NCBI GenBank assembly: GCA_023954475.1 | Contig: JAMLHW010000004.1 | Coordinates: 124,001-188,000 of the forward strand | Length of the DNA: 64,000 nt | Direction of reading: 5' to 3' | Origin: Anaerolineae bacterium | GTDB lineage: Bacteria; Chloroflexota; Anaerolineae; Promineifilales; Promineifilaceae | In this document: positions 25,686 through 48,864 of the stretch, one piece after another | Position numbering within the stretch: position 1 is the stretch's first letter | How the letters are laid out: every line of letters begins with the position of its first letter | Program-made: the position numbers and the translations under genes | Notes under the pieces: generated by a model | What the model was told of the DNA's origin: nothing | Databases searched by the model: none | The model's input: the letters and a program-made list of their open reading frames with translations, nothing else

Positions 25686-26532
25686 TTAGGTTGTATTGAC
25701 ATTTGTGTTAGATCAACGTCAATCTGATCTTGTTGAGCGAACATGCATCAGATGACAAGACATAAACTCGATGATGTTGTTTGGCCTAAGATTTATCGCT
25801 GTTTGAAATTAACACCAGGCATCTATGTTGGCAATGAGGCGAAAACACGAGCCTTTGTTGATGCTGTCCATTGGCGTATGAGAACTGGTGCTCCCTGGGA
25901 GGATTTGCCAGCGGAGTTTGGTAAACCGAACTCTATTTTCAAGCGGTTCGCTCGCTGGTCTGACAGCGGCGTCTGGGAGAAGCTGCATCAACATTTCATC
26001 GAAGATCCTGACATGGAATGGTTGTTATTGGATAGCAGCGTTGTCCGCGCTCACCCATGTGCGGCTGGTGCACCCAAACAAAACGGCGGGCAACAAGCAC
26101 AATCGTTGGGCAGAAGTGTGGGTGGGTTCAGCACAAAAATCCATGCATCTGTTGATGCACTGGGGAATCCGTTGCGCTTCTTGTTAACTGCTGGCCAGCG
26201 AGGCGATGCACCTCAGGCGATTGCCTTACTCGAAGGGTTTGAGTTTGCTGGTGTTATGGCCGACCGCGGGTATGATGCAGACGGAATTTTGGACTTCATC
26301 ATGGAAAACGATGCTGTCGCTGTCATTCCAGCTAAGAAAAATCGGGTTGAACAACGCGAAACCGATTGGTTCACCTACAAAGACCGCCATCTGGTCGAGT
26401 GTTTCTTCAACAAAATCAAGCACTATCGGGCGATATTTTCTCGCTTTGAGAAATACGCGAGCAGATACATGTCGCTTTTGAGCTTTGCATCCGCTCTTAT
26501 ATGGCTCAGATAGAAATGTCACTAGAACCTAA
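25686..26532 (+). mobile_element. IS5-family insertion sequence, intact
   Basis: One transposase gene is flanked by imperfect inverted repeats of 21 bases. The left copy (25686-25706) has TTAGGTT and TGACATTT; the right copy (26512-26532) is its reverse complement with three mismatches and overlaps the transposase stop. The outermost bases TTA / TAA resemble the TNA targets of the IS427 subgroup, but an exact target duplication is not seen. No other copy is in the window. Confidence 0.75.
25743..26513 (+). CDS. IS5 family transposase
   Basis: A 256-residue DDE transposase in one frame. The N-terminal domain (MRTGAPWEDLPAEFG, FKRFARWSDSGVWEKL) is the DUF4096-like DNA-binding part, followed by the first Asp in LLDSSVVRAHPCAAGA, the second in ADRGYDAD and the catalytic Glu in LVECFFNKIKHYR. 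Many members of this subgroup need a frameshift between two frames; here the gene is uninterrupted and probably active. Its stop lies inside the right inverted repeat. Confidence 0.93.
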   Translation: MHQMTRHKLDDVVWPKIYRCLKLTPGIYVGNEAKTRAFVDAVHWRMRTGAPWEDLPAEFGKPNSIFKRFARWSDSGVWEKLHQHFIEDPDMEWLLLDSSVVRAHPCAAGAPKQNGGQQAQSLGRSVGGFSTKIHASVDALGNPLRFLLTAGQRGDAPQAIALLEGFEFAGVMADRGYDADGILDFIMENDAVAVIPAKKNRVEQRETDWFTYKDRHLVECFFNKIKHYRAIFSRFEKYASRYMSLLSFASALIWLR

Positions 26533-33306: not shown

Positions 33307-35895
33307 ATGAGCGATCAGCCACATGAAGTCATTGAGGCCCGCGGCAAGTTTCTGTTTATTGGGGGCGAGAAATTCTACGTGCGGGGCACGACGTACGGCC
33401 CATTAACCCCTGTTGAGGACGGTGAATACCACAACCCATCTGTAGTTAGCAAAGATTTCTCTGCTATGGTTGCCGCAGGTATCAATGCCGTTCGAACATA
33501 CACTGTACCCCCAGTATGGCTACTCGATATTGCTCAAACATACAATTTGCGCGTGATGGTCGGCCTGCCGTGGGAGCAACACGTCACCTTTCTTGATGAC
33601 AATAAATTGCTTGCTTCCATTGAAGAACGTGTACGGGCAGGCGTACGCAGGTGTACCGGACATCCGGCCTTACTCTGCTATGCGATCGGCAATGAGATTC
33701 CGGCACCTATTGTTCGTTGGCATGGTGCCGCAAAAGTTGAGAAATTTCTTAAAAAGCTATACCTGGCTGTAAAAGAAGAAGACGAATCGGCGCTCGTCAC
33801 TTATGTAAACTACCCGACTACGGAGTACTTGCAACTGCCCTTTCTGGATTTTCACTGCTTCAATGTCTACCTTGAGGACCGCGAAATATTAACCAGCTAT
33901 ATTGCTCGTTTGCATAATCTTGTTGGTGAAGCCCCACTCGTTCTGGCGGAAATTGGCCTTGACAGTCTGCGCAATGGAGAAGATGCACAAGCCGAAACAC
34001 TTGATTGGCAAGTGCGAAGCGCATTTTCTGCCGGTTGTGCAGGAGCATTTGTTTTTGCCTGGACAGATGAATGGCATCGTGGGGGACAGTTGGTAACTGA
34101 CTGGAAATTTGGATTAACAGATAGTTGGCGCCAACCAAAGCCGGCTCTAGAACGCGTGTCGCAAGCTTTTACTGAGGCTCCTTTTCCAATAAGTGACGTC
34201 TGGCCACGGATATCGGTCGTCGTCTGTAGCCACAATGGGGCTGCGACGATGCGCAGTTGTTGCGAAGGACTCTCACGCTTGCGCTACCCGGATTTCGAAG
34301 TCATTGTCGTTGATGACGGTTCGACAGATGCAACGGCCGATATTGCCGCTGAATATGGGTTCAAAGTTATCAGTGTTGAGAATCAAGGACTTAGCACAGC
34401 ACGCAACATCGGTCTTGAAGCTGCGTCCGGTGAAATTATTAGCTATATAGATGATGATGCCTATCCGGACCCTGATTGGCTGACCTATATTGCCAATGAT
34501 TTTATGAATAATGCCTATGCAGGCCTGGGTGGGCCAAATCTGACACCTCCTGAGGATGAATTAGTTGCCAAGTGTGTCGCCAATGCACCAGGCGGCCCAA
34601 TTCACGTTCTCTTGAGCGATCAGGAAGCGGAGCACATACCAGGCGTCAACATGTCATTCCGCCGCGAGGCGCTGCAAGCGATCGGTGGTTTTGATCCTCA
34701 GTTTCGGGCTGCCGGTGATGACGTGGACATTTGTTGGCGACTACTGGAAGCGAACCAGGTCATAGGCTTCAGTCCATCTGCCGTGGTTTGGCATCATCGA
34801 CGCGCATCTGCGCTTGCTTACTACCGTCAACAAGTTGGCTATGGTAAGGCCGAGGCGCTTTTAGAGAAGAAGTGGCCCGAAAGATATAACGCGCTCGGCT
34901 ACCCTGCATGGCATGGGCATCTTTATGGCGGCGGATCATTCAAGTGGCGTTCAAGACGCCTGGAGAAGATTTTTCACGGTGTCTGGGGTACAGCACCATT
35001 TCAGTCATTATACGCTCCTGGCCCGGGTGGTTTGACTTCACTTGTTTTGATGCCGGAATTTTATTTGTTCTTTATTTTGTTGTTCGCAGTAGGGATGCTC
35101 GGGTTTTTGTGGTCGCCTCTCTTTTTGGCTATTCCAGCAAGCCTTGTTGCGATTGGCATGTCGGTCATGGCAGCGGCGCGCAATTCGCTCCTTAATACGA
35201 CTAGCTGGACACATTTAGCCTGGCACGAAAAAGCCGAACGCGGATCTTTGACGACTCTTTTATTCGCTATACAGCCTCTGGCTCGGCTACATGGTCGGCT
35301 GAAGTATGGCCTGGTTCCGTGGCGGATCAGTAATGTGGGTATTCGGCCGAATATTACAACCTTCTTTAAGCCACTTCCACGCTCAGCACAAATATACAGC
35401 AAACAGTGGCGCAGCGTTGTTGACTGGATGGTCTGGCTTGAATCTGGTCTAAAACAGCGTGGGCTCGCCGTGAATAGAAGTGGTGAATTCGAGCGTTGGG
35501 ATCTGTACATACGCCTGGGAGGTCTGTGTATCATACGCCTACTGATGACCGTTGAAGAATATGGGGAAGGGTTACAACTTGTCCGCTATCGACTACAGAC
35601 ACATATGACAAGGCTTCCACTGGCTATCATCTTATGCTTCATCACTTTGTCAACACTAACGACGTTTGCCGGTGCATGGTACGCGAGCATACTGTTCGGC
35701 ATGTTTGCGTTAATAGGCATCGTTCAAACGCGTTTGCAAAAGATAGCGGCAATTAGCCAAATTACAGAAACCCTGGCAGAGATGGAAGAGAAAAGCAAAG
35801 TAAAACTAAAGCCACCCCAAAAGCAATTAGACCTCGCTTCAAATTCAATTGAAGAACCACAAGCAACTATACAAAAGGCCAGATATACAGGCTAA
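33307..35895 (+). CDS. Glycoside-hydrolase-like TIM barrel fused to a GT2 glycosyltransferase with membrane helices
   Basis: An 862-residue fusion. Residues 1-290 resemble a GH2/GH5-type barrel (FYVRGTTYGPLTP, AGINAVRTYTVPP) with both possible catalytic Glu residues, in AIGNEIPAP and LAEIGLDS. From about 300 a GT2 domain follows: VVVCSHNGAATMRSC, VVDDGSTDAT, the metal-binding YIDDDAYPDPDW, and AAGDDVDICWR. Two hydrophobic segments lie near 590-640 and another near 780-810, so it is a membrane enzyme. It probably makes, or makes and trims, a surface glycan on the cytoplasmic face. First gene of the accessory island. The fused architecture is certain; the sugar is not known. Confidence 0.85.
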   Translation: MSDQPHEVIEARGKFLFIGGEKFYVRGTTYGPLTPVEDGEYHNPSVVSKDFSAMVAAGINAVRTYTVPPVWLLDIAQTYNLRVMVGLPWEQHVTFLDDNKLLASIEERVRAGVRRCTGHPALLCYAIGNEIPAPIVRWHGAAKVEKFLKKLYLAVKEEDESALVTYVNYPTTEYLQLPFLDFHCFNVYLEDREILTSYIARLHNLVGEAPLVLAEIGLDSLRNGEDAQAETLDWQVRSAFSAGCAGAFVFAWTDEWHRGGQLVTDWKFGLTDSWRQPKPALERVSQAFTEAPFPISDVWPRISVVVCSHNGAATMRSCCEGLSRLRYPDFEVIVVDDGSTDATADIAAEYGFKVISVENQGLSTARNIGLEAASGEIISYIDDDAYPDPDWLTYIANDFMNNAYAGLGGPNLTPPEDELVAKCVANAPGGPIHVLLSDQEAEHIPGVNMSFRREALQAIGGFDPQFRAAGDDVDICWRLLEANQVIGFSPSAVVWHHRRASALAYYRQQVGYGKAEALLEKKWPERYNALGYPAWHGHLYGGGSFKWRSRRLEKIFHGVWGTAPFQSLYAPGPGGLTSLVLMPEFYLFFILLFAVGMLGFLWSPLFLAIPASLVAIGMSVMAAARNSLLNTTSWTHLAWHEKAERGSLTTLLFAIQPLARLHGRLKYGLVPWRISNVGIRPNITTFFKPLPRSAQIYSKQWRSVVDWMVWLESGLKQRGLAVNRSGEFERWDLYIRLGGLCIIRLLMTVEEYGEGLQLVRYRLQTHMTRLPLAIILCFITLSTLTTFAGAWYASILFGMFALIGIVQTRLQKIAAISQITETLAEMEEKSKVKLKPPQKQLDLASNSIEEPQATIQKARYTG

Positions 35896-36027
35896 TTGTC
35901 AGGCATTGTCATTGCCATCAATGCGGCAAAAATACATGCTACAAAACCAAACGATTTACTAATCAACGCTGTCTAGCATCTAGCCCGATGACCCTGTATT
36001 GGTTGGCTGTTTTCTAGAATTGAAAGA

Positions 36028-37839
36028 ATGAACAAAAAACGATCTGGTGATCTGCAATTAATTGGACGGCTTATAAAACTTGCCCGTCCGTTTTGGCTAC
36101 AGATCATCCTAATTTTCATACTGAGTCTCTTGTCTACCCCGCTGGCACTGCTGACACCGGTGCCGTTGGCCATTGCAGTCGATAGCGTGGTAGATTCAAA
36201 GCCGCTACCGGGTGTTTTGAATACACTGTTTCCTCAAGGAACGCTAGATGAGCAAGCTATACTGATGTTGGCTGCAGCGATGACCGTAGGAATCGCCCTT
36301 GCAACAGGCTTGTTGTCATTGACGAAATCTATGGTGCGTACCTATACAGGTGAGAATCTCATTTTGGCATTTCGCTCCAGATTGTTTCGTCACGCCCAGG
36401 ACCTGTCACTGTCATATCACGATAGCAGGGGATCATCAGATGCACTTTATCGCGTGATGTACGATGCCACATCAATCGCCGACGTTGCGATCGATGGATT
36501 AGCCCCGTTTGTTACGGCCGCATTTACGCTGGTTGCAATGTTCTGGGTCATCTTCGAGATTGATGCGCAAATCGCATTGGTCGCTCTAGCCATCGCGCCG
36601 GTACTTTTTCTGACCGGATACACTTATCGCCGACAATCGCGCAGCAAATGGCGTGAGGTTAAGAAGCTCGATCGTGCCGCGCTGGCCGTTGTCCAAGAGA
36701 CACTTTCCGCTGTTAGAGTTGTAAAAGCTTTTGGGCAAGAAAATCGTCAGAGTGAAACCTTTTCCGGTCGCTCAAAATCTACAATTCGTGCTCGCATCAG
36801 TGCGTATTTCATTACATATGGCTATTCTCTAATTTCAAGTCTAGTCACAGCTATTGGAACAGCTATTGTTCTGGTACTTGGCGTCAATCATGTGCTGACC
36901 GGCGTGATTTCATTAGGCGCTTTCCTGATCATTATGTCCTACCTCGGCCGACTTTACTCTCCGATGGATACAATGACACAGAAACTAGGGAAGATGCAAT
37001 CGTCGCTTGCTGGAGCCGAACGAGCCGTGCAATTACTAGATGAGCCGCCCGATGTCCAAGAAAAGCAAGACGCCCTTCCTTTGAAACGCGTGCGTGGCGC
37101 AATCAGGTTTGAAGACGTCTCCTTTGCATACGATTCCCGAAACACAGTACTGCAACACATATCTTTTGACGTGCCTGCTGGAACAAGGGTAGGCATTGTA
37201 GGGCAAACCGGTGCCGGTAAATCAACCATGATGGGCCTCCTCGCCCGTTTCTACGATCCTACATCGGGTGCTGTTCTGCTTGATGATATTGATATCCGAA
37301 ACTACAAGCTCGCAGATCTGCGCAAACAGTATGCAATCGTTCTTCAAGAACCCGTGCTATTTTCTACGAGCATAGCCGAAAATATTGCCTATGCGCGACA
37401 TGACGCGACGGAAGCAGACATCATACGCGCCGCAAAAGCTGCCAATGCCCATGAATTCGTCAGTAATCTTCCTGATGGTTATGAAACCTTGGTGGGCGAA
37501 CGAGGAATGAAGCTTTCAGGCGGCGAACGTCAACGTATTTCTCTGGCTAGAGCCTTTCTCAAAGATGCGCCAATTTTGATTTTGGACGAACCCACAAGTT
37601 CCGTCGATGTTGGGACAGAAGCGGTAATCGTTGAAGCTATGGAACGCTTGATGCAAAATCGCACCACTTTTATGATTGCTCACCGGCTGTCAACGTTGGA
37701 AAAATGCGATTTGCTCCTTGTTATCGAAGCCGGCCAATTGATCGATGTACGATCTGATGTCAGTTCAGTAATTGAGTACGCGATTGAAGAGGGCGGTTTT
37801 GAAAGCTCAAAAGCAGGAACGGTAGCACACCATGTCTAG
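36028..37839 (+). CDS. ABC transporter, fused permease and ATPase (exporter type)
   Basis: A 603-residue half-transporter of the MsbA/lipid A or peptide exporter type. Six helices in residues 20-310 are followed by a nucleotide-binding domain with Walker A GQTGAGKST near 393, signature LSGGERQR near 497, Walker B ILILDEPTSS near 517 and the switch His in IAHRLSTL. It would work as a homodimer to export a lipid-linked or hydrophobic product. The next gene starts inside its last codons (8-base overlap), so export is coupled to the kinase cluster. Confidence 0.93.
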   Translation: MNKKRSGDLQLIGRLIKLARPFWLQIILIFILSLLSTPLALLTPVPLAIAVDSVVDSKPLPGVLNTLFPQGTLDEQAILMLAAAMTVGIALATGLLSLTKSMVRTYTGENLILAFRSRLFRHAQDLSLSYHDSRGSSDALYRVMYDATSIADVAIDGLAPFVTAAFTLVAMFWVIFEIDAQIALVALAIAPVLFLTGYTYRRQSRSKWREVKKLDRAALAVVQETLSAVRVVKAFGQENRQSETFSGRSKSTIRARISAYFITYGYSLISSLVTAIGTAIVLVLGVNHVLTGVISLGAFLIIMSYLGRLYSPMDTMTQKLGKMQSSLAGAERAVQLLDEPPDVQEKQDALPLKRVRGAIRFEDVSFAYDSRNTVLQHISFDVPAGTRVGIVGQTGAGKSTMMGLLARFYDPTSGAVLLDDIDIRNYKLADLRKQYAIVLQEPVLFSTSIAENIAYARHDATEADIIRAAKAANAHEFVSNLPDGYETLVGERGMKLSGGERQRISLARAFLKDAPILILDEPTSSVDVGTEAVIVEAMERLMQNRTTFMIAHRLSTLEKCDLLLVIEAGQLIDVRSDVSSVIEYAIEEGGFESSKAGTVAHHV

Positions 37840-38839
37840 TTACGTCGCTAACGAGGTTTTGCATACCAACATTGACCAGCACCCAGCAGCGCTAGCCTGG
37901 CAGCAGTGGTGGTCAGGTGTTTTTACATTTAACACTATTGTCGTCATCAAGGAGCGCAGAAAAAGCGGTATTATACGGTCAGGTCTGTACCGATTGACCG
38001 ATATGACCAACGGTAGAAAACCGGTAATTGCTAAGAGACAGAAAACGCACAAAACTGAATACGAGCGATTCATTTACGAAAATATTCTCTCCCCTTTGCC
38101 TATTGCAACGCCAGAATATTTAGGACATTGGCCAGAACCTGAAGGTGAATTCTCATGGGTGTTTCTAGAAGATGTCGGCGACATTGGCGTTGATCTGAGC
38201 AAAATAGATCATCGCAGAAAACTGGCAGAATGGACTGGAATTATGCATGCTTCGGCGGCAAATCTGGAAATCATCGATCAACTTCCGCTTCGAGGCGCAA
38301 AGCATTATCTTGAACACGCTCAATCCGCCTTCTCCACAATCAACCAAAGTCTCACAAACAACGCTTTAGCGTCTGAAGACGGTGAGTACCTCAACAGCAT
38401 GTTACGATGCTACGAGAATCTTATCGCGAATTGGAGTCAGATTGCGGACCAGTGTAGGGATTTTCCGGTCACGTTTGTACATGGCGACCTCGTACACAAA
38501 AACATGCGTGTTCAGACTAGAGATGCTGGTGAGACTGTTGTTGTGTTCGATTGGGAAACGTCGGGACAAGGTTTGCCGGCACCTGATCTGGCATCGATCA
38601 AGGTGTTGGACATTGCTTCGTATTTGTCGCCAGTGCAACAACAATGGCCCAACCTCACCATGCGAGCAATTGAGCGACTGGCAGAACTTGGCAGTTTGTT
38701 CCGCACGCTGGCAGCAATAAACTGGGAAGCGCACGACCTGTTGGTTGAATCTCCCTGGGTCAAAACACGCGTAGCAAGAATGCAGCTTTATTGCCAAAGA
38801 ATTAGTCGAGTGCCCGGAATTCCGTGGCAGATAGCGTAA
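37832..38839 (+). CDS. Aminoglycoside-phosphotransferase-like kinase A
   Basis: A 335-residue APH-fold protein (phosphotransferase enzyme family). The Brenner motif is intact: His217-Gly218-Asp219 in HGDLVHKN, and the metal-binding Asp240 in FDWETSGQG. The N-lobe has VIAKRQKTHKTEYERFIYE, with the Lys that would bind ATP. It probably phosphorylates a hydroxyl on a sugar or small molecule made by this cluster; the substrate is unknown. It overlaps the ABC gene by 8 bases and is followed 1 base later by kinase B, to which it is related. Confidence 0.8.
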   Translation: MSSYVANEVLHTNIDQHPAALAWQQWWSGVFTFNTIVVIKERRKSGIIRSGLYRLTDMTNGRKPVIAKRQKTHKTEYERFIYENILSPLPIATPEYLGHWPEPEGEFSWVFLEDVGDIGVDLSKIDHRRKLAEWTGIMHASAANLEIIDQLPLRGAKHYLEHAQSAFSTINQSLTNNALASEDGEYLNSMLRCYENLIANWSQIADQCRDFPVTFVHGDLVHKNMRVQTRDAGETVVVFDWETSGQGLPAPDLASIKVLDIASYLSPVQQQWPNLTMRAIERLAELGSLFRTLAAINWEAHDLLVESPWVKTRVARMQLYCQRISRVPGIPWQIA

Positions 38840-38840
38840 C

Positions 38841-39788
38841 ATGGTCACAGCTGAAGAGAGAGCATGGGCAGCCTGGAGAAGAATACATCCAGAATCTACT
38901 GCCGTCCGTGCGGTGGAAATGATTCAACCAGCCCATCGGCGTTCTACTGTCGTACGTTTAGAGGGTGTGCCGGGATTTGAATACAATATTATGGCCAAGG
39001 AGTGCGATACTTCTCAGGCTGAAATTGAATTTAGTGTCTATGCTGAGATTCTGCCTCATATTCCTCACCCAACACTGAAATGTTTAGGTATCGTGAAAGA
39101 GCTATCGCAGGGAAGTAGTTGGTTGTTTGTTGAAGAGGCGGTCGGTGAAGTGTACTCACATAGCAACACAGACCACCAACTGCCGGCAGCGCGATGGCTT
39201 GCGGCACTACATGAACATGCAGCGTCGCTCGTCAACCGGGTTGATCTTGAACAGCGAGATGTTGAGCATTATCGAAATCTGGCAGAAGCAGCTCGCGAGA
39301 CATTGGAGAACAGTTCCGGAAACCCTGCGCTGTCAAGTGAGCAGTCAAAGTTGGTAAGCGATTTAAGGAGACAATGTGAACAATTGCGCAATCGTGTATC
39401 AGAATTGCAATGGTTGTTTGATGAGTTTCCCAAGACGCTTGTTCATGGTGGGTTTTACGGTAAGAATGTTCGGATAGGCATACAAGACGCTCTACCAGTC
39501 GTCCTTGCGTATGATTGGGAAAGTGCTGGTTGGGGAAATCCGGCGGTAGACCTGGCTTATATCAATCTCGACCTTTATGGAGCACAATGTCTTGCCGAAG
39601 GTCTTCGTGTTTCGCCGGAGTTGCTGCACGCCACAGCAATTCTGGGCAAAATGTTGTGGGTTGTCAAAGCTATACCCGGCGAACACAAAACCTTAGCATC
39701 ACCGTGGCTGCATAAGGTCATGTCCAAATTGGCCTATTATCGGGATGAAATGAAACAAGCCATGCTTTTGATGGGATGGGAGCTGTAG
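38841..39788 (+). CDS. APH-like kinase B with altered catalytic motif
   Basis: A 315-residue paralogue of kinase A (same AYDWESAGWGNPAVDLAY pattern, Asp225). In the catalytic loop the usual HGD is His202-Gly203-Gly204 (HGGFYGKN), so the catalytic Asp is missing. The protein may be an inactive pseudo-kinase that binds substrate or a partner, or may use a different base. Its frame is intact over the full length with tight spacing on both sides, which argues against a simple pseudogene. Confidence 0.75.
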   Translation: MVTAEERAWAAWRRIHPESTAVRAVEMIQPAHRRSTVVRLEGVPGFEYNIMAKECDTSQAEIEFSVYAEILPHIPHPTLKCLGIVKELSQGSSWLFVEEAVGEVYSHSNTDHQLPAARWLAALHEHAASLVNRVDLEQRDVEHYRNLAEAARETLENSSGNPALSSEQSKLVSDLRRQCEQLRNRVSELQWLFDEFPKTLVHGGFYGKNVRIGIQDALPVVLAYDWESAGWGNPAVDLAYINLDLYGAQCLAEGLRVSPELLHATAILGKMLWVVKAIPGEHKTLASPWLHKVMSKLAYYRDEMKQAMLLMGWEL

Positions 39789-39789
39789 C

Positions 39790-41709
39790 ATGCAACTCGG
39801 GTATTATCCGATTGCTGAGCACCCTGCTGTTCGTGCTTGGGCGCGGGTCTCGAGCAACAAACGCTTGCCCTCGCTTGTTTTGCCCGTGGAAGAAAGTGGC
39901 AAAGCGTCTATCTACCGTCTCGTCGGTATCCATGGTGACAAGACATCAATAATTGCAAAGCGATCTCATTTTTCAACTATTGAGATCGAACGCACGATGT
40001 ATGAAGAGATTCTGCCTCGTTTACCTGTTTCGTCTTTACGGTATTATGGATCTGTTGCGGATTCAGATAGCGAGCTGTCTTGGCTGTTTATCGAGGATAT
40101 CGGCCGATTACTTCAGCCAAAATCCCTCCTAAATTATCAATGCGAGATTACCCAGTGGCTGGCGACATTTCATACGACATCCTCAAATATCGTTCCACCG
40201 GTAGACTTCCCACGCAAAGACACCACCTTCTTTCTGCAACGTCTGCAATTAACACGAAACCAATTCTTGGAACGACTCACACATGACGACCTGAAATTGC
40301 GTGACCGCCTCGTACTTGAAAACTTCGTCAGACAATGCGATCTGCTGGCGGCAAATTGGGCACAGATCGAAGATCGTTGTCATGATTTGCCCGACTGTAT
40401 GGTACATGGCGACGTTGCAGATGAGAACATCGGAATCGATGGAACGGCAACAGACAAAAGGGTACTCCTGATAGATTGGGAAAAGGCTGGATGGGGCAAT
40501 CCCGCCGTAGATCTGCCTCAGGCCAGTTTTGAAGTCTACGAAGCGATCAGTCACAAACAATGGCCACATTTGAGCCTGTCTCATCTGTGCATGATCGAAC
40601 AATGCGGGCGCATTTTCTCCGTCTTTTCCCGTAATTTAGGCCCAAAGCCTGCAAGAAAAGTGCACCATTACCTCAGGCGCCTGCAATTGGTGAGTCGCGA
40701 GATGAAGCTAACCAAATCTTCGTTTCTTAGACAATTCGCCACACCGATATCAGAGTCCGAAAAGTCTTTGAAGTCAAATGCAACGACTGCCTGGCTAGAC
40801 GTAGGCGCGACTCATAGAATGCCCGAACGAGTTTCAATTCTCCATGAAAAAGCCGGCAAATCCGTTGTCTGCCGTCTGATTGCGGCGGGCCCGTTTGGAG
40901 AATCGATCATTGGCAAACATACGATGTTCGAACCTGCTCGGATTGAAGCACTGATCTATGAACGGGTTTTGGCTGAACTCGACATTGAAGTGCCAAAGTA
41001 TTATGGATTTCTACCAGAACCCGACGGTAAATCGGCATGGGTGTTTATTGAGGACGCAGGCGAAATACGCTTCCAAAAAGATGATGCGGAACACCGAGTA
41101 TTAGCAGCATATTGGTTGGCCAAACTGCATACCGATGCAGTTCAATTGGCGAGTGAATTGAATTTACCACAGTACAACGCATTCCATTACCAGGAATTAC
41201 TCCAGTCTGCGCGCAAGAAAATTGACATAGGTATGGGCAACCCGACCTTCTCTCATTGGCATCTCGAAGTGTTGCAGGCTGTCTTGAACGAGCTGGCTTT
41301 CATAGCCTCACACTGGAATACGGTCGAACAGTTTTGTATGCAAGTGCCTGCGACACTTGTACACGGTGATTTTGTCGAAAAAAACGTAAGGATGCGCGTG
41401 TATAGCTCTAAAACGTCACTTGTCGCTTTCGACTGGGAAAGCGTTGGCTTTGGCGTACCGGCTGTCGATCTCGTCAACGTAGACGCGGCAACCTATAGTG
41501 CCGCTGTGAAACCCGTTCGGCCGATTTTCACAGAAACGTTTACCCAACGCTTAGTCGATTTGGGAACGGTTTTTCGCACGCTTCAACTGATTAGCTGGGC
41601 AGGCGACACGCTTGGCTTTGACTGGGCTGAACGGGCGATCAGAAAACAACTATTCTACTATAAGGATTGGCTACGGAATTCCTTCGAAGCTTTTTTGCAG
41701 GAAGGTTGA
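39790..41709 (+). CDS. Double APH-like kinase C (two kinase domains in one chain)
   Basis: A 639-residue protein with two complete APH-type kinases in tandem. Domain 1 has HGDVADEN (His206, Asp208) and IDWEKAGWGNPAVDL (Asp229). Domain 2 has HGDFVEKN (His525, Asp527) and FDWESVGFGVPAVDL (Asp548). The two halves are similar to each other and to kinases A and B, so this is likely a fusion of neighbouring duplicates. It starts 1 base after kinase B. Substrate unknown; two successive phosphorylations or an internal dimer are possible. Confidence 0.8.
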   Translation: MQLGYYPIAEHPAVRAWARVSSNKRLPSLVLPVEESGKASIYRLVGIHGDKTSIIAKRSHFSTIEIERTMYEEILPRLPVSSLRYYGSVADSDSELSWLFIEDIGRLLQPKSLLNYQCEITQWLATFHTTSSNIVPPVDFPRKDTTFFLQRLQLTRNQFLERLTHDDLKLRDRLVLENFVRQCDLLAANWAQIEDRCHDLPDCMVHGDVADENIGIDGTATDKRVLLIDWEKAGWGNPAVDLPQASFEVYEAISHKQWPHLSLSHLCMIEQCGRIFSVFSRNLGPKPARKVHHYLRRLQLVSREMKLTKSSFLRQFATPISESEKSLKSNATTAWLDVGATHRMPERVSILHEKAGKSVVCRLIAAGPFGESIIGKHTMFEPARIEALIYERVLAELDIEVPKYYGFLPEPDGKSAWVFIEDAGEIRFQKDDAEHRVLAAYWLAKLHTDAVQLASELNLPQYNAFHYQELLQSARKKIDIGMGNPTFSHWHLEVLQAVLNELAFIASHWNTVEQFCMQVPATLVHGDFVEKNVRMRVYSSKTSLVAFDWESVGFGVPAVDLVNVDAATYSAAVKPVRPIFTETFTQRLVDLGTVFRTLQLISWAGDTLGFDWAERAIRKQLFYYKDWLRNSFEAFLQEG

Positions 41710-41722
41710 CCGAGTTACAGTT

Positions 41723-42691
41723 ATGAGTTTAGGACAACCGGACTCAGAGACGCTTGAGCGGCAGTTAGCCCGGCTTTTTGCAGATCGGAACGCCGCAGCC
41801 GGTGCGCTTTTGTCTTTGGAACGAAGAAATAACCCTTATAGCAGCGCCTTCCCCAGCGAGATAGTTGTTTGCCGTTTTGCCGACCATTCGTCGCAGAAAC
41901 TCCTGCTTAAATATGGTGTTGCCGGCAAGCATACCGGCCACGGTTATTGGGGAAATGTCGGCTATGAGGCGAGTGTGTATGAACATGTACTTGAACGCCT
42001 AGCACTCTCGACGCCACGTTACTTTGGCTGCTTTGTCTATGAGCCGGCCGGTCAAGTGTGTCTGGCAATTCAATATTTGGAAGGGACCACTCGCCTCGAC
42101 AAATGTTCTGAGAGTGCGCTTTTGAGATGTGCAGAATGGCTTGGTGCGTATCATGCTGTTGCCGCCGTCATCGGCAATCTTGCCAGCGTACGGAAAAAGC
42201 TCAACCAATATGATGCAGCGTATTTTGGCGGTTGGGTCGAACGAACGCTGGTTTATTCTCGCGTGCTGCGACATCAATATCCTTGGATTGAGCGCCTATG
42301 TGAAAGCTTCATGGCGTCAGTCGAAATGCTCACTGATGACCATCTCACAATCATTCACGGTGAATTTTATCCCAACAACATCCTGGTAGGTACCGAACAG
42401 ATCCATCCGGTTGACTGGCAGGCGTCCGCAATTGCGCGCGGCGAGATCGATTTGGCAAGCCTGACGCAGGGATGGCGCAACACACAGTTGGTTGAGCAAT
42501 GCATTCTGGCGTACCAGCGTGCGCGTTGGCCACAGGGAGCGCCTCAAGATTTCGAGAACGCGCTTGAAATCGCACGTGTTTATTGGCCTCTGCGTTGGCT
42601 CGGCGACACACCGGAATGGACGTTGAAGCCGGAGCGTCGGTGGTATTTTGACAACCTTTACCAGGCGGCAGAAGCTGCCGGTTTGCTTTGA
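41723..42691 (+). CDS. APH-like kinase D (HGE-type)
   Basis: A 322-residue APH-fold protein of a second subgroup: the catalytic loop reads HGEFYPNNILV (His212, Glu214 in place of Asp) followed by VDWQASAIARGEIDLASL (Asp231). The same HGEFY pattern occurs in kinase E at 47769, so the variant is shared and probably functional. ATG 41723 is chosen because the frame upstream overlaps kinase C. The gene ends just before the glycosyltransferase. Confidence 0.78.
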   Translation: MSLGQPDSETLERQLARLFADRNAAAGALLSLERRNNPYSSAFPSEIVVCRFADHSSQKLLLKYGVAGKHTGHGYWGNVGYEASVYEHVLERLALSTPRYFGCFVYEPAGQVCLAIQYLEGTTRLDKCSESALLRCAEWLGAYHAVAAVIGNLASVRKKLNQYDAAYFGGWVERTLVYSRVLRHQYPWIERLCESFMASVEMLTDDHLTIIHGEFYPNNILVGTEQIHPVDWQASAIARGEIDLASLTQGWRNTQLVEQCILAYQRARWPQGAPQDFENALEIARVYWPLRWLGDTPEWTLKPERRWYFDNLYQAAEAAGLL

Positions 42692-42732
42692 TTCAATCTT
42701 TCATTCGCGATGATCAGGAGCAACACATCGGC

Positions 42733-43929
42733 ATGAAACTTGAGATTAACTACCCTCCGGTCACTAGAGAGACCGTTGTTGTATGGGGTTTGCTTGGCTC
42801 GTACCCTTTCGGCGGTATGACCTGGCAGGTGTTGCATTACTTGGCCGGGTTACGCCAACTGGGTTTTGATGTGTGGTATGTGGAAGACTCGAACAGACCG
42901 GTGCTCAATCCTTCGAATTTGTGGCATTCGGTTGCGTTTGCGGAGAATGCAGCCTACTTGCAACGCCAAATGGATGCTATTGATCTGGGTGATAAGTGGG
43001 TTTTTCGGCCGAAATCTGGCGAGGACACCTGTTATGGCGCAAAAGACGTTGTCGGGTTAGCCAATTTGTACCGAAACGCAGCCGCCGTATTCAACCTGTG
43101 TGGTTCACATTATATTCGCCCTGACCATGATGACATCTCCTGTTTAGTCTATGTACAGACCGATCCGGTATTGGACCAGATACGAATCGCACTTGGTGAA
43201 GAATGGCTCACTGATCAACTAGATCGCCACGACGTGTTATTCAGTTATGGGGAGAATCTGGGTAACTCCGACTGCACAGTACCGATTGAGCGCTACACAT
43301 GGAAGTCCACTCGACCTCCTGTCGTGCCGGAGTGGTGGGGATCCAATAGCACATTGCCCGACAATTATCGCTTCACAACCGTAACGACATGGAAAGATCA
43401 CGAAAAAGATATTGAATGGGCTGGCGTGAAGTACCTGTGGCGCAAAGATTTACAGTTTCAGCAGTTTATAGCATTGCCTCAACACTCACAGTTACCTCTG
43501 GAATTGGCCGTGGAAGGCATTAACGATGATGACAAGCTGAAGCTAGAGCGTCACGGTTGGCACATAATTCCGGCGCGGTCGCTGTCAGATCCTGAGCGCT
43601 ATCGAGATTACATAAGACGTTCGGCGGGTGAATTCACGATAGCCAAAGACCAATACGTACGTATGCGAAGTGGCTGGTTCAGCGATCGTAGCGTTTGCTA
43701 TCTTGCTGCTGGTCGGCCCGTAATTACGCAAGAAACCGGATTCAGTAAATTCATCCCAACCGGTGAAGGTTTGTTCGCCTTCTCCACGATAGACGAAGCG
43801 GCTGATGCAATCGACACGATCGCTGCAGACTACAGCCGCCATTCCCAAGCCGCTCTTGAGATTGCACACGAGTACTTTGATTCCCAACGAGTCCTGTCAA
43901 AGATGATGGATGAGATAGGATTGCTCTAA
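42733..43929 (+). CDS. CgeB-like glycosyltransferase (family 1/4 type), intact copy
   Basis: A 398-residue GT-B-like protein. The N-terminus (WGLLGSYPFGGMTWQVLHYLAGLRQLGFDVWYVED) is the donor-side Rossmann fold. The C-terminus has the nucleotide-sugar binding pattern WFSDRSVCYLAAGRPVITQETGFSKFIPTGEGLFAFS, followed by a closing helix (AHEYFDSQRVLSKMMDEIG), as in the CgeB/GT1 group. ATG 42733 with AGGAG upstream is preferred to TTG 42688. Three decayed paralogues lie downstream, so this is the only intact member. It probably adds a sugar to the cluster product. Confidence 0.78.
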   Translation: MKLEINYPPVTRETVVVWGLLGSYPFGGMTWQVLHYLAGLRQLGFDVWYVEDSNRPVLNPSNLWHSVAFAENAAYLQRQMDAIDLGDKWVFRPKSGEDTCYGAKDVVGLANLYRNAAAVFNLCGSHYIRPDHDDISCLVYVQTDPVLDQIRIALGEEWLTDQLDRHDVLFSYGENLGNSDCTVPIERYTWKSTRPPVVPEWWGSNSTLPDNYRFTTVTTWKDHEKDIEWAGVKYLWRKDLQFQQFIALPQHSQLPLELAVEGINDDDKLKLERHGWHIIPARSLSDPERYRDYIRRSAGEFTIAKDQYVRMRSGWFSDRSVCYLAAGRPVITQETGFSKFIPTGEGLFAFSTIDEAADAIDTIAADYSRHSQAALEIAHEYFDSQRVLSKMMDEIGLL

Positions 43930-45091
43930 TGACACTGAACTCATCAAAACTGCGAATCATCGTAAGTGGCTTAATCGCGCAATATCCGTTGGGTGGCGTA
44001 ACCTGGGATTACCTTCAATACGTTCTGGGTCTTGCTCAGCAGGGACACGATGTTTACTACATCGAAGATACTGGACAGTGGCCATATAATCCCGAAGATA
44101 GAGGTACAGGTAAGGGTTACGAATATAATGTCCGCTACCTTTCGGGAATTATGCAAAAGTTTGGCCTAGAAGAACGGTGGGCCTACTGCTTCCCTTGGGA
44201 GACGCAATGGTTTGGGATGTCTGATCGCCAGCGAAGGGAAAGTAGTAGAGTCTGCGGACTGCTGATTAATATCGGAATTAACATTACTGCGTAATCATAG
44301 GATTTTCGGGCCGTCGAACTAGTATATATTGATTCTGACCCAGTCTTCACCCGGTCAAGCTTGCTCGCGGCCAGCAAGTTTTTTGTAAAATGATCGATAC
44401 ACACGATGTTCTTTTCAGTTTCGGTGAAGCTCTTTCTGAACTGGTGTTACCCGACACAGGGTATCATTGGCGGCCAACGCGTCAGCCAATAGTCTTAAAC
44501 GAGTGGCGAACTGATAGTCAATATCGCGATGTATTTACTACGGTTATGAATTGGACCAGTTATAAACCAGTTAAGTTTGAGGGGAAAGCAATATGGCCAC
44601 AAAGATCTCGAATTTAAACGTTTCCTTGATCTTCCGCAGTTGGTGCCTAATGTTAAGTTTGAATTGGCCGTGAATGAAGGCAAGACGCGGCGTACGCCAC
44701 GAGATCTTCTCAAGTACAAAGGCTGGTACATTGTAGATCCTGAACAAGTTTGTCCCGATTTTGACAGTTATCGCAACTATATCCAAACATCGAAAGCGGA
44801 GTGGAGTATAGCAAAGAATGGCTACGTGGTTATATTTATGGGATGGTTCAGCTGTCGCTCTGCCTGTTATCTCGCGGCAGGGAAGCGGTTGTGCAGGATA
44901 CAGGTTTCTCGCGCGTATTACCAGTTGGCGAGGGTCTTTTTGCATTTGGAACCCAAGAGGAAGCGGTCACCGCAATTCACAGCGTGAACGAGGATTATGG
45001 TCGACATTCGAAAACCGCTCGAGCTATTGCCGAGGTGTATTTTGACTCTAACAGAGTATTGACGAGTTTGATAGCACGAGCGATGGAGTAA
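43929..45091 (+). pseudogene. Decayed CgeB-like glycosyltransferase, second copy
   Basis: It starts with ATG overlapping the stop of the intact gene (TAATG). The first frame (IIVSGLIAQYPLGGVTWDYLQYVLGL) ends at 44294. Similarity then continues in other frames: YIDSDPVFT near 44325, MIDTHDVLFSFGEAL from 44390, KDLEFKRFLDLPQLVPN from 44600, and VVQDTGFSRVLPVGEGLFAFG from 44890, ending at 45091. At least four frameshifts break the gene. The similarity to the intact neighbour is clear along the whole length, so it is a duplicate in decay or a region with sequence errors. Confidence 0.75.
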
Positions 45092-45097
45092 AGTCTA

Positions 45098-45975
45098 ATG
45101 TCAATACGTATTGCTAATTGCTGGCTGGTTTAGTTTTGAACAAATGGGTGCAGCCGGCGACTTTTGCGCCCGAGATCTTTTATGCGATTGGTTGAAAGGT
45201 GCACCCAGCATTCCCTTTGAAATTGCTGTGGCCAAGCCTTTTTCCGGTGGCGTTGATTGGCAAGAAGTAAATCCCGCCGAATATTCTCATGTGGTTTTTG
45301 TGTGCGGCCCGTTTGGTAATGGCTGGCCTATTACCAGATTTCTTCCCGTTTTGTAGATGCGCGCCTGATTGGTGTCAACCTGTCGATGCTTGAAGCATTG
45401 GAAGTTTGGAATCCTTTGACCTATTGCTTGAGCGAGATAGCTCGCGCTTTGCCCGGCCTGACTTGTGTTTCCTATCTCAACAACCCAAAGTTCCAGTAGT
45501 CGGCAAAGTCCTGGTTCACCCGCAGACGGAATATGGCACAAGGGCCATGCATGCCGTCGCCAACGAGGCCGTGGAACGACTCCTCGGCAAGCGCGAAGTA
45601 GCTACTGTGCCAATCGATACGCGTCTTGATGAGAATAATTCGAATCTACGTAGCCCGAGGGAAGTGGAATCTTTGATTGCGCGTATGGACTTAGTGGTGA
45701 CTACTCGCTTGCACGGTACTGTTCTCTCGCTCAAGAACGGCGTCCCGGTATTAGCTATTGACCCCATTGCGGGAGGTGCAAAAATAAAGCGGCAGGCTGA
45801 GACTATTGGCTGGCCAATTGTGTTTGCGGCTGACCACTTGTCAGAAACCGCTTTGGATGCGGCTTTTGACTTTTGCTTGAGTGAAGAGGCAAAGTTGGAA
45901 GCACATTCCTGCGCCACACGCGCGAACGCACTTCTACATAATGTTCGAGAAATTCTTGTCGGGGATTCGAAGTAA
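45098..45975 (+). pseudogene. Polysaccharide pyruvyl transferase family, frameshifted
   Basis: The reading passes through three frames. MSIRI at 45098 continues as LIAGWFSFEQMGAAGDFC from about 45114; the next segment RFVDARLIGVNLSMLEAL starts about 45347; and LLLERDSSRFARPDLCF to the stop at 45975 is in the third frame. The C-terminal part (MDLVVTTRLHGTVLSLKNGVPVLAIDP) has the family motif with the conserved His. Such enzymes add pyruvate ketals to surface sugars. It is flanked by decayed glycosyltransferases, so the modification is probably lost unless these are sequence errors. Confidence 0.72.
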
Positions 45976-46405
45976 ACCACACAAGTACAATCGATTGATG
46001 TTTGGGGATTACAATCGACATGCTGATTAAAGTGAAATCGGTCTGCCACTTAGAGGTTGTCACTAGCAGGCTGTCGGAAAAGTCAATTGGACCTTATATA
46101 CAGTGGCTGAATGCAATACAAAACCACCATATACAGGGGTCAGACACATTTCCAGCAAACTGTAAGGGGATTACCTAGATATAGCAAAACAACCTTACGC
46201 AAGACACATCGTTTTCATGTCCTACAGTAGACAATTTCGATTTTACACTGGAAACACTTTGGTGGAATGCACAAGCATCGTGATCAAAACGGCAAAAGAA
46301 TCTGTAGACAATGTTGGTCAAATATCTATCTATCAATTCAGAAGATTGGGCCGAGAATATTCTGCGATCCTAGCCTGTTATGAAGTTCTTGAAGGAATAA
46401 CTGCT
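45976..46405. other. Gene-free stretch with possible insertion-sequence debris
   Basis: About 430 bases without a supported gene. GGCTGTCGGAAAAGTC near 46069 resembles the terminal inverted repeats of several IS families, and GGGGTCAGACACATTTCC near 46135 resembles sequence found beside REP-associated transposases. No transposase fragment is found, so this is only a hint that an element was here. Confidence 0.3.
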
Positions 46406-47548
46406 ATGGCACGTATCGTCCTTGGTTCGTATATGATTCGCTACCCACTCCGGCGGCATGATGTCCTGGGTTCTACAATATCTGGTAGGTCTCCATCAAT
46501 TAGGACACGAGATTTATTTCGTCGAGAAAAGTGGTTGGCGTAATTCCTGCTTCAATCCCGTCCGCAATGTAATGACCGACGATTGCGGGTATAAGTTAAA
46601 ACAGTTCATGAGTTATTGTCACGTTTCGGACTTGGTGATAGATGGTGTTTTGTAAACGCCACTGACGAGTATGGCTTGTCGCAAAAAGAAATCGAATCGG
46701 TATTTGAATCGGCAGATCTGTTCATCGATATGGGTACTCACGGCTCATGGCTGGATGAGGCTAAAAGCAGTGGCGTGTGCATCATGATCGACGGCGAACC
46801 AGGCTTCACACAGATGAAGATGGCAAAACGACTTGAAAATGGTGAGAAGCTACCCACTTACGATTACTATTATTCGACTGGCCGAAATATCGGCATAGAT
46901 ACAGTAGCGCACCAACCTTGATATGCCGGTGGCGCTGCTGCCCATCTGCCATTGAAATGAACATCTTCAGGTACGCCTGGATCAAGGAATGGGCCGTTCA
47001 CGACAGTAATGAATTGGCAATCATACGAACCGTTGACATACAATGGTATTTGAACATACGGACATAAGGATGTTGAATTTGCCCAATTCATGAGATTGCC
47101 TCGCATGACTGACCATCCTTTAGAAGTGGCGGTGTCTGGCAAACACACACCAATAAGCCAGCTACACGAAAATGGCTGGCGTGTGAGTGATGGGCATGAC
47201 GTCACTTTGTCCTTCGACTCCTTTTTAGCCTACATATGCAATTCAACTGGTGAGTTTAGCGTCTGCAAGAGCGGTTATGTGCGCCACAATACGGGTTGGT
47301 TTAGTGATCGGAGTGCTGCCTACCTAGCCAGTGGTCGTCCGGTTATTTTGCAGGATACCGGTTTCAGCCAGCACTTACCTTGTGGCCAGGGTTTATTCGC
47401 GGTACGAACAAGCTATGATGCAGTCGGTGCAATAGAGGAGATTTGTGGGAACTATCAATTGCATTCAAAACGAGCACGTGAGCTTGCTGCAGAATACCTT
47501 GACGTGTCCATAATTTTACCAAAGTTCCTTTCTGAAGTAGGCGTGTAA
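46406..47548 (+). pseudogene. Decayed CgeB-like glycosyltransferase, third copy
   Basis: ATG 46406 gives MARIVLGSYMIRYPL, then a shift near 46451 leads to MMSWVLQYLVGLHQLGHEIYF in another frame. RFGLGDRWCFVNATDEYG lies in the next frame from about 46620 and stops at 46921. The C-terminal third (HNTGWFSDRSAAYLASGRP, then DTGFSQHLPCGQGLFAV) runs from about 47090 to 47548. At least three frame changes and a damaged stretch around 46920-47090 separate the parts. The order of motifs matches the intact gene at 42733. Confidence 0.72.
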
Positions 47549-47570
47549 ACATCATTCAATAAATTGCTAT

Positions 47571-47771
47571 TTAGTGTGTAGTTCAACAGGCGAATTTGGT
47601 ATAGCACTAAAGACCATATTTAACCGGGCTTTCCAGGTTAAATCATAATGTTAACTTTATCGAAGACAACTTCCAATGTCAGGTTGCACGAGAGCTGGCA
47701 ATAACCGAATTTAATTCAACAAAAGTTCTTTCAGAACTTCTCGATAGAACCATGAGTCAAACTTCATTATG
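47571..47771 (+). pseudogene. Remnant of a fourth CgeB-like glycosyltransferase
   Basis: Two short pieces of the family C-terminus remain. CSSTGEFG near 47576 matches CNSTGEFS of the third copy. VARELAITEFNSTKVLSELLDRT, about 47681-47749, matches the closing helix of the intact gene (EIAHEYFDSQRVLSKMMDEIG). Everything between is lost. The next kinase gene starts inside the final codons of this remnant. Confidence 0.55.
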
Positions 47772-48794
47772 AGCACGCCCTATGTCGTCAATTCGGCCGA
47801 ATTGACATCCACACTACAACAAGCGCTGAATCAATTCTACGAGCAACCACGAGCCATCACTACGCTCGCGCGCAAATCCTCTGCCTATCGGATGAGTTTT
47901 CTGATCGAAGAGTTGACGGTAGCGCTGGATGACGGCACTGAACTTGACCTCATCTTCAAGGATTTGAGCTGGCAATCATTGACTGAGAAGGCCAAGCACG
48001 AAAAGCCGCTGTTTCTCTATAACCCTGAACGTGAAATTCAAACCTACCGACACATTCTCGCTGATCACAAACTTGGTCAAGCAGTTTGCTACGGTGCGAT
48101 TGCCGATGCGGAGCAGGATCGCTATTGGTTGTTTTTGGAGAATCTGGCCGGGCTTGAACTTTATCAAGTGGGAGAGTTCGACAGGTGGGAAAAGAGTGCT
48201 GCATGGCTGGCTCAGATACACACAGCCTTCAGGACAGATGTTGATCAATTCGCTACGGTAGTCCCATTGGTGCACTATGACGCGGACTACTTTCGCCGCT
48301 GGCTGGTGCGGGCGCAAGCGTTTGTTGAAGCAGCACCAGATGCTTCGGCCGAAGCACGTGAACAACTGAGTTGGCTATCCGAGCGCTACGAAAAAGTAGT
48401 TGAGGTCCTGGTTTCACTACCTGTCACACTGATCCATGGCGAATTCTACGCATCAAATATATTAGTTGAACAATCAGGTGCTGATCTGCGCGTAAGTCCG
48501 GTCGATTGGGAAATGACCGGGATCGGCCCTGGCCTGTTGGACTTGGCGGCCCTGACCGTCGGCAACTGGACCGAAGAGCAACAAGCCGCAATGGCAAAAG
48601 CTTACTTTGATGCGTTGCCTGCGGACAAGCATCAATTCGAGACTTTTGAATCCCTGTTGGAGACGCTAGCCTACTGCCATTTGTATACGGCAATCATGTG
48701 GCTCGGCTGGACACCAGAATGGGCACCACCGGCCCAAATAGGCTCAAACTGGTTGGGAGAAGCTGTACGTCTGGCAGAGAAGCTGAGGCTTTGA
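47769..48794 (+). CDS. APH-like kinase E (HGE-type)
   Basis: A 341-residue APH-fold protein of the same subgroup as kinase D: HGEFYASNILV (His223, Glu225) and VDWEMTGIGPGLLDLAAL (Asp246). The N-lobe has LDLIFKDLSWQ. It is the last gene of the accessory island and begins with the dispersed palindrome in its 9th-11th codons (Ser-Ala-Glu). Cytoplasmic; substrate unknown, presumably the same small molecule or sugar as the other kinases of the cluster. Confidence 0.78.
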   Translation: MSTPYVVNSAELTSTLQQALNQFYEQPRAITTLARKSSAYRMSFLIEELTVALDDGTELDLIFKDLSWQSLTEKAKHEKPLFLYNPEREIQTYRHILADHKLGQAVCYGAIADAEQDRYWLFLENLAGLELYQVGEFDRWEKSAAWLAQIHTAFRTDVDQFATVVPLVHYDADYFRRWLVRAQAFVEAAPDASAEAREQLSWLSERYEKVVEVLVSLPVTLIHGEFYASNILVEQSGADLRVSPVDWEMTGIGPGLLDLAALTVGNWTEEQQAAMAKAYFDALPADKHQFETFESLLETLAYCHLYTAIMWLGWTPEWAPPAQIGSNWLGEAVRLAEKLRL

Positions 48795-48864
48795 AAAAAC
48801 ACCAACTGCGGATACCGTGAAGAAAATCTTATAAGTGTGCCATCCCGAAATACCGCGCACCACA

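Follow-up and report, generated by a model that had tools for sequence, protein, structure and literature searches.

A putative glycan operon of an Anaerolineae bacterium has probably lost one part of its function through the decay of a segment in its interior. The segment comprises a glycosyltransferase gene (A), a polysaccharide pyruvyl transferase gene, another glycosyltransferase gene (B) and the remnant of a further one (D). Comparison with intact relatives places frameshifts and stops in this segment and confines them to it, assigns A, B and an intact neighbouring glycosyltransferase gene (C) to separate ancestors, and shows that a matching segment is intact in a member of another phylum. 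The window analysed is the whole 64,000-nucleotide stretch of contig JAMLHW010000004.1 (positions 124,001 to 188,000). Coordinates refer to the window unless another contig is named, and all genes of the operon lie on its forward strand.

The block is conspicuous for its lack of open reading frames. In the 400 kb surveyed of the 412-kb contig, no other stretch that lacks stop-to-stop frames of 200 amino acids is as long as positions 43927-47747. This empty stretch measures 3,821 bp, as compared with 1,791 bp for the runner-up on the same contig. As little open frame was found in none of 3,962 windows of equal size (400 kb, step 100), whether the minimum frame was set at 150, 200 or 250 amino acids. 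The earlier note had described a block of decayed genes at 43929-47771, and both the frame density and the lesions seen against intact relatives bear this out. It had also regarded the genes on both sides as intact. This was confirmed with the frame-aware aligner that was used for the broken genes, since neither a frameshift nor a stop appeared in any of the five neighbour alignments, which covered C, the ABC exporter, the N-terminal half of APH3, APH4 and APH5. The GT2 gene, APH1, APH2 and the C-terminal half of APH3 were judged by their open frames.

The decayed block sits inside a run of same-strand genes with little spacing (33307-48794), which is referred to here as the cassette. The cassette starts with a fusion of a GH2 TIM-barrel domain and a GT2 glycosyltransferase (33307-35895), an open gene in which PF02836 and PF00535 both score above the cut-off. 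It is followed by an intact MsbA-type ABC exporter (36028-37839; Pfam PF00664 and PF00005), whose best partial NCBIfam hits, CphA_assoc_ABC and MsbA, are both below the cut-off. The next four genes (37832-42691) are open, belong to the APH kinase family and carry five domains, with PF01636 above the cut-off in all four: APH1 (37832-38839), APH2 (38841-39788), APH3 (39790-41709, with two domains) and APH4 (41612-42691). Glycosyltransferase C (42688-43929), a CgeB-like protein with a predicted GT-B fold, is intact, shows no lesion and lies directly before the block as the fourth CgeB-like gene of the locus. The block itself consists of broken A (43929-45091), the broken pyruvyl transferase (45098-45975), a stretch of 430 bp (45976-46405), broken B (46406-47548) and remnant D (47577-47772); A and B are both CgeB-like. 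A further intact and lesion-free APH-family kinase gene, APH5 (47769-48794; PF01636), ends the cassette. The ATG of A overlaps the stop of C, and the stop of D overlaps the start of APH5, which suggests that the genes form one operon. The APH-family kinase domains of the cluster (37832-42691 and 47769-48794) number six, one gene being a two-domain fusion, and their mutual identity is 21-34%. A search of the own genome with C gave matches at this locus only, in five places. Promoter-like sites near the block amount to 7 vs. 7.4 expected by chance, and a terminator scan likewise yielded nothing above chance. Elsewhere in the window, an IS4/5-type transposase gene (25743-26513) is flanked by rho and a gene for fructose-1,6-bisphosphatase.

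The lesions were placed by frame-aware alignment with intact relatives. In total, nine frameshifts are firm (nine to twelve depending on the reading), and up to three in-frame stops are distributed across A, the pyruvyl transferase and B. The count of at least ten frameshifts given in the earlier note was about right. A contains three frameshifts, one of which is set at 44352 by two references and at 44385 by the third, while the other two lie at about 44570 and 44886. It also has two in-frame stops, at 44292 and 44298. Under a high stop penalty, the alignment of A with reference L036 turns both stops into two compensating shifts, so that five shifts result overall. Two references give rise to gaps of 15 and 22 codons in A; these do not occur with reference L039 and were not counted as lesions. 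The pyruvyl transferase has two frameshifts, at about 45345 and 45416, and perhaps a third at about 45110 if the ATG at 45098 is its start. Its longest fragment is still recognised by PF04230 with a score of 43.9 against a gathering cut-off of 25.3; the intact homologue in Pleomorphovibrio marinus SW125 scores 36.9. B carries four frameshifts (about 46451, 46602, 46895 and 46972) and one in-frame stop at 47051, in a codon that is absent from both references.

The last copy had been described as fragments, and little else is left of D. An N-terminus-like piece (about 47617-47667) and a C-terminus-like piece (about 47677-47757) stand in the same frame and are mostly matched by different references. 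The best 10 of 29 references score 48-63 and 60 shuffles reach a maximum of 37, in a control that covers the best reference only. A candidate mid-gene-like piece at around 47577, upstream of the others, was recognised by eye in the translation and carries no score. The stretch of 430 bp that separates the pyruvyl transferase from B (45976-46405) has no counterpart in P. marinus, where these two genes overlap. A site within it (46066-46083) shares 17 of 18 bases with positions 1504-1521 of another contig (L068), beside a DDE transposase gene. When one position is allowed to be either G or C, the pattern of this site occurs exactly at two places in the own genome and with two mismatches at four, and the control gave one. 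The site may be a relic, a lone insertion-sequence end left in the decayed block; the match is suggestive only.

According to the earlier note, the block arose when a glycosyltransferase gene was duplicated repeatedly. Four homologous genes or remnants do lie close together, and D is too short for placement, so a recent tandem duplication of one gene followed by the loss of spare copies might be supposed. The relationships among A, B and C contradict this. Their mutual identity is only 31-37%, which is lower than their identity to foreign genes (49-53%), and no nucleotide match was found among them. A is 53% identical to the intact copies of two genomes of the same phylum (G426 and G524) and 49% identical to that of Pleomorphovibrio. 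B shares 51% with the Pleomorphovibrio B gene, and C shares 51% with a gene from a gammaproteobacterial metagenome-assembled genome. In a tree of 29 family members, which A and B entered as read-through sequences with an X at the lesions, B groups with the Pleomorphovibrio gene (support 100/98) and C with the gammaproteobacterial gene (100/99). A groups with the G426, G524 and Pleomorphovibrio genes at 94/92, just under the mark for strong support. A single clade of A, B and C is rejected with p-AU 7e-5 under the model used, and homologues of A and B occur in the same order in Bacteroidota. Judged by these alignments and trees, A, B and C are of old, separate ancestry, and recent duplication is extremely unlikely. 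The gene order that is kept open in P. marinus, together with the separate clades, indicates that the genes of the block encode distinct enzymes that were inherited as a set, and are not spare copies.

The intact counterpart is found in P. marinus SW125. There, the GT2 gene, the ABC exporter, A, the pyruvyl transferase and B follow one another in the same order, and all of them are open. Identity across this cassette is 46-51%, with 48% for the pyruvyl transferase. The two loci are alike in gene order and differ in that every gene of the P. marinus cassette is open. An APH-family kinase homologue was not found in the 17 kb covered of the P. marinus locus, and further CgeB-like genes lie downstream of B.

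In the genomes sampled, the cassette is rare in its own family and class. The C query matched 1 of 52 family genomes and 1 of 59 relatives, each time the own genome, the two samples being overlapping ones. The GT2 query at E 1e-80 found 2 of 298 class genomes, the own genome included. The A query at E 1e-20 found 10 of 400 phylum genomes, again with the own one included, and it catches any member of the glycosyltransferase family; in the tree, only G426 and G524 among these phylum genomes group with A. The B query at E 1e-40 matched 9 of 400, and its best match was the own broken copy. The pyruvyl transferase was found in 2 of 15 genomes, namely the own genome and that of P. marinus. Gene order was compared in 15 foreign loci, of which two pairs share a genome, several are on short contigs and one, L035, was found via GT2; of the nine foreign genomes matched by the A query, G586 is not among them. 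Eleven of these loci have a homologue of the GT2 fusion that is 41-55% identical and lies near CgeB-like genes. The ABC exporter has a homologue in 13 of the 15, and APH-family kinases occur in 9, one of them weak. With parts missing or multiplied, the cassette recurs in Bacteroidota, Gammaproteobacteria, Eremiobacteria and genomes of the own phylum. The version in Thermoleophilia is without the GT2 fusion. This patchy distribution suggests that the cassette either spread horizontally or was lost many times. A plasmid home did not come to light: at E 1e-10, none of 72,556 plasmid records matched the C protein, and three plasmid records match the P. marinus pyruvyl transferase at 32-33% identity. 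No description of the cassette was found in a limited search of the literature.

Two further explanations would not require any lasting decay of the segment. An assembly or sequencing fault limited to the block, caused by low coverage or a strain mixture, would leave well-conserved protein between the lesions, as is seen here. The genome is a draft of 26 contigs, and according to a study on this subject, many pseudogenes in public assemblies are due to assembly errors and low coverage (PMC11017572). A homopolymer of at least four bases lies within 15 bases of 3 of 12 lesion sites, compared with 14% of block positions, which is a slight excess of the kind that read errors would give; the 12 sites include 44274 and 44305 (A, one reference only) and the less firm 45110. 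The other 9 of the 12 are not near a homopolymer of four, however, and read errors do not typically produce in-frame stops, 430 bp without a counterpart or the loss of the middle of D. Furthermore, all 13 lesions (10 shifts and 3 stops) fall in the 3.8-kb block, for which the chance is 1.4e-8 if lesions are evenly spread over the cluster, in a test that counts 45110 and is escaped by errors clustered in one bad patch. Such a fault is thus an unlikely cause of the lesions.

The other explanation, phase-like variation, had been offered alongside loss and receives little support. Glycan genes often phase-vary, and several related glycosyltransferase genes stand in a row here, so that reversible frameshifts or recombination among copies could be imagined. 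One of three references even sets the A shift at 44385, directly behind a run of six T bases, but the other two set the same shift at 44352. No tandem array was detected in 43000-48800 at a score of 30, and the simple repeats in the block are this T run (44379), one (AC)4 and one (TATC)3. A, the pyruvyl transferase and B each contain at least two lesions, which argues against a switch. The copies are also too diverged for easy recombination, and repeats of at least 25 bases are limited to a direct pair at 76% and two inverted ones at 72-74%. Phase variation is therefore highly improbable, and the decay of the segment remains the preferred reading.

The age of the decay can be approached through the residues that are retained between the lesions. 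Of the residues that at least 90% of the intact copies share, A has kept 35 of 36 and B 35 of 37, both within the range of intact members, and intact C has kept 37 of 37; the read-through of A and B was fitted to a reference and is biased toward retention. For A and B together, the loss of such residues has a 95% upper bound of 10%. With the threshold lowered to 80%, A retains 64 of 66, the highest of 29 rows, and B retains 53 of 68, the second lowest of 29, with 57 of 68 in its intact P. marinus sister. The end branches of A (0.51) and B (0.49) are as long as that of intact C (0.50). The high retention between the lesions would mean, provided that these are real, that little time has passed since selection stopped. 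In a study on Salmonella, 346 of 378 pseudogenes had one inactivating mutation (Kuo and Ochman 2010, PMC2916853). The Salmonella pseudogenes resemble the present block in having short indels and premature stops between conserved neighbours. Here, in contrast, three adjacent genes carry at least two lesions each and a fourth is mostly gone. Several lesions per gene are unusual by the Salmonella standard and, if they are real, would indicate that the block has been kept for a while.

The enzymatic character of the family can be judged from intact C. Its structural model has a pLDDT of 93.3 and, at E 0.001, finds 188 matches in the PDB. Among these, the best 50 have TM scores (query) of 0.46-0.59 at identities of 9-15%, and they include BshA, PimA, HepE, AviGT4 and other glycosyltransferases. 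BshA, PimA, HepE and similar matches are GT-B enzymes, and C is predicted from its model to have the GT-B fold. A PDB sequence search with the family profile reached a best E of only 0.11. Against PF13524, C scores 19.1, which is under the gathering cut-off of 25, and 9 of 23 family members match this domain at E 0.01. Since C falls below the cut-off, “CgeB-like” should be read as a loose label. Work on Bacillus subtilis lists CgeB among the glycosyltransferases that potentially make or anchor the glycans of the spore crust (PMC10502511). The family in the window likewise consists of putative glycosyltransferases with a GT-B-like fold, likened to CgeB by family label, and the gene neighbourhood of CgeB differs from that in the window.

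An MsbA-type exporter together with a pyruvyl transferase makes a secreted or surface glycan the natural product to infer for this cassette. The APH-family kinases could phosphorylate sugars or the glycan itself. The GT2 fusion, the ABC exporter, the kinases, A, B, C, D and the pyruvyl transferase would thus have formed one tightly packed glycan operon. The segment from A to D would then have been released from selection, with relaxed selection as the probable cause of its decay. Small frameshifts, nonsense changes, the loss of most of D and perhaps the visit of an insertion sequence would have followed. The remaining genes of the operon are still open, so the cell probably produces a simplified glycan, or only small amounts of it. 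The earlier suggestion of a recent loss of part of a surface-sugar pathway fits the confinement of the lesions to the block and the intact P. marinus counterpart; the loss, its recent date and the nature of the product are conclusions drawn from gene content and residue retention.

A broader reading, which is tentative and rather doubtful at present, would regard the locus as a modular glycoconjugate export cassette that moves between phyla and exchanges its sub-modules. Such a cassette would be composed of the GH2-GT2 fusion, the MsbA-like exporter, arrays of APH-family kinases and sets of CgeB-like GT-B transferases. The dead block would be a discarded sub-module, possibly for a pyruvylated branch. 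If this were true, the decay would reveal a separable part of the pathway. Taken as ordinary decay, the locus is another rare glycan cluster that is losing a part. The intact counterpart marks A, the pyruvyl transferase and B as a unit. The less ordinary point is the cassette itself, present in several phyla and with many APH-family kinases beside an MsbA-like exporter, which would be worth naming and testing. At one locus of the own phylum (L045, 3367-7719), the GT2 fusion and the ABC exporter are joined in a single open frame of 1,450 amino acids, possibly as a natural fusion.
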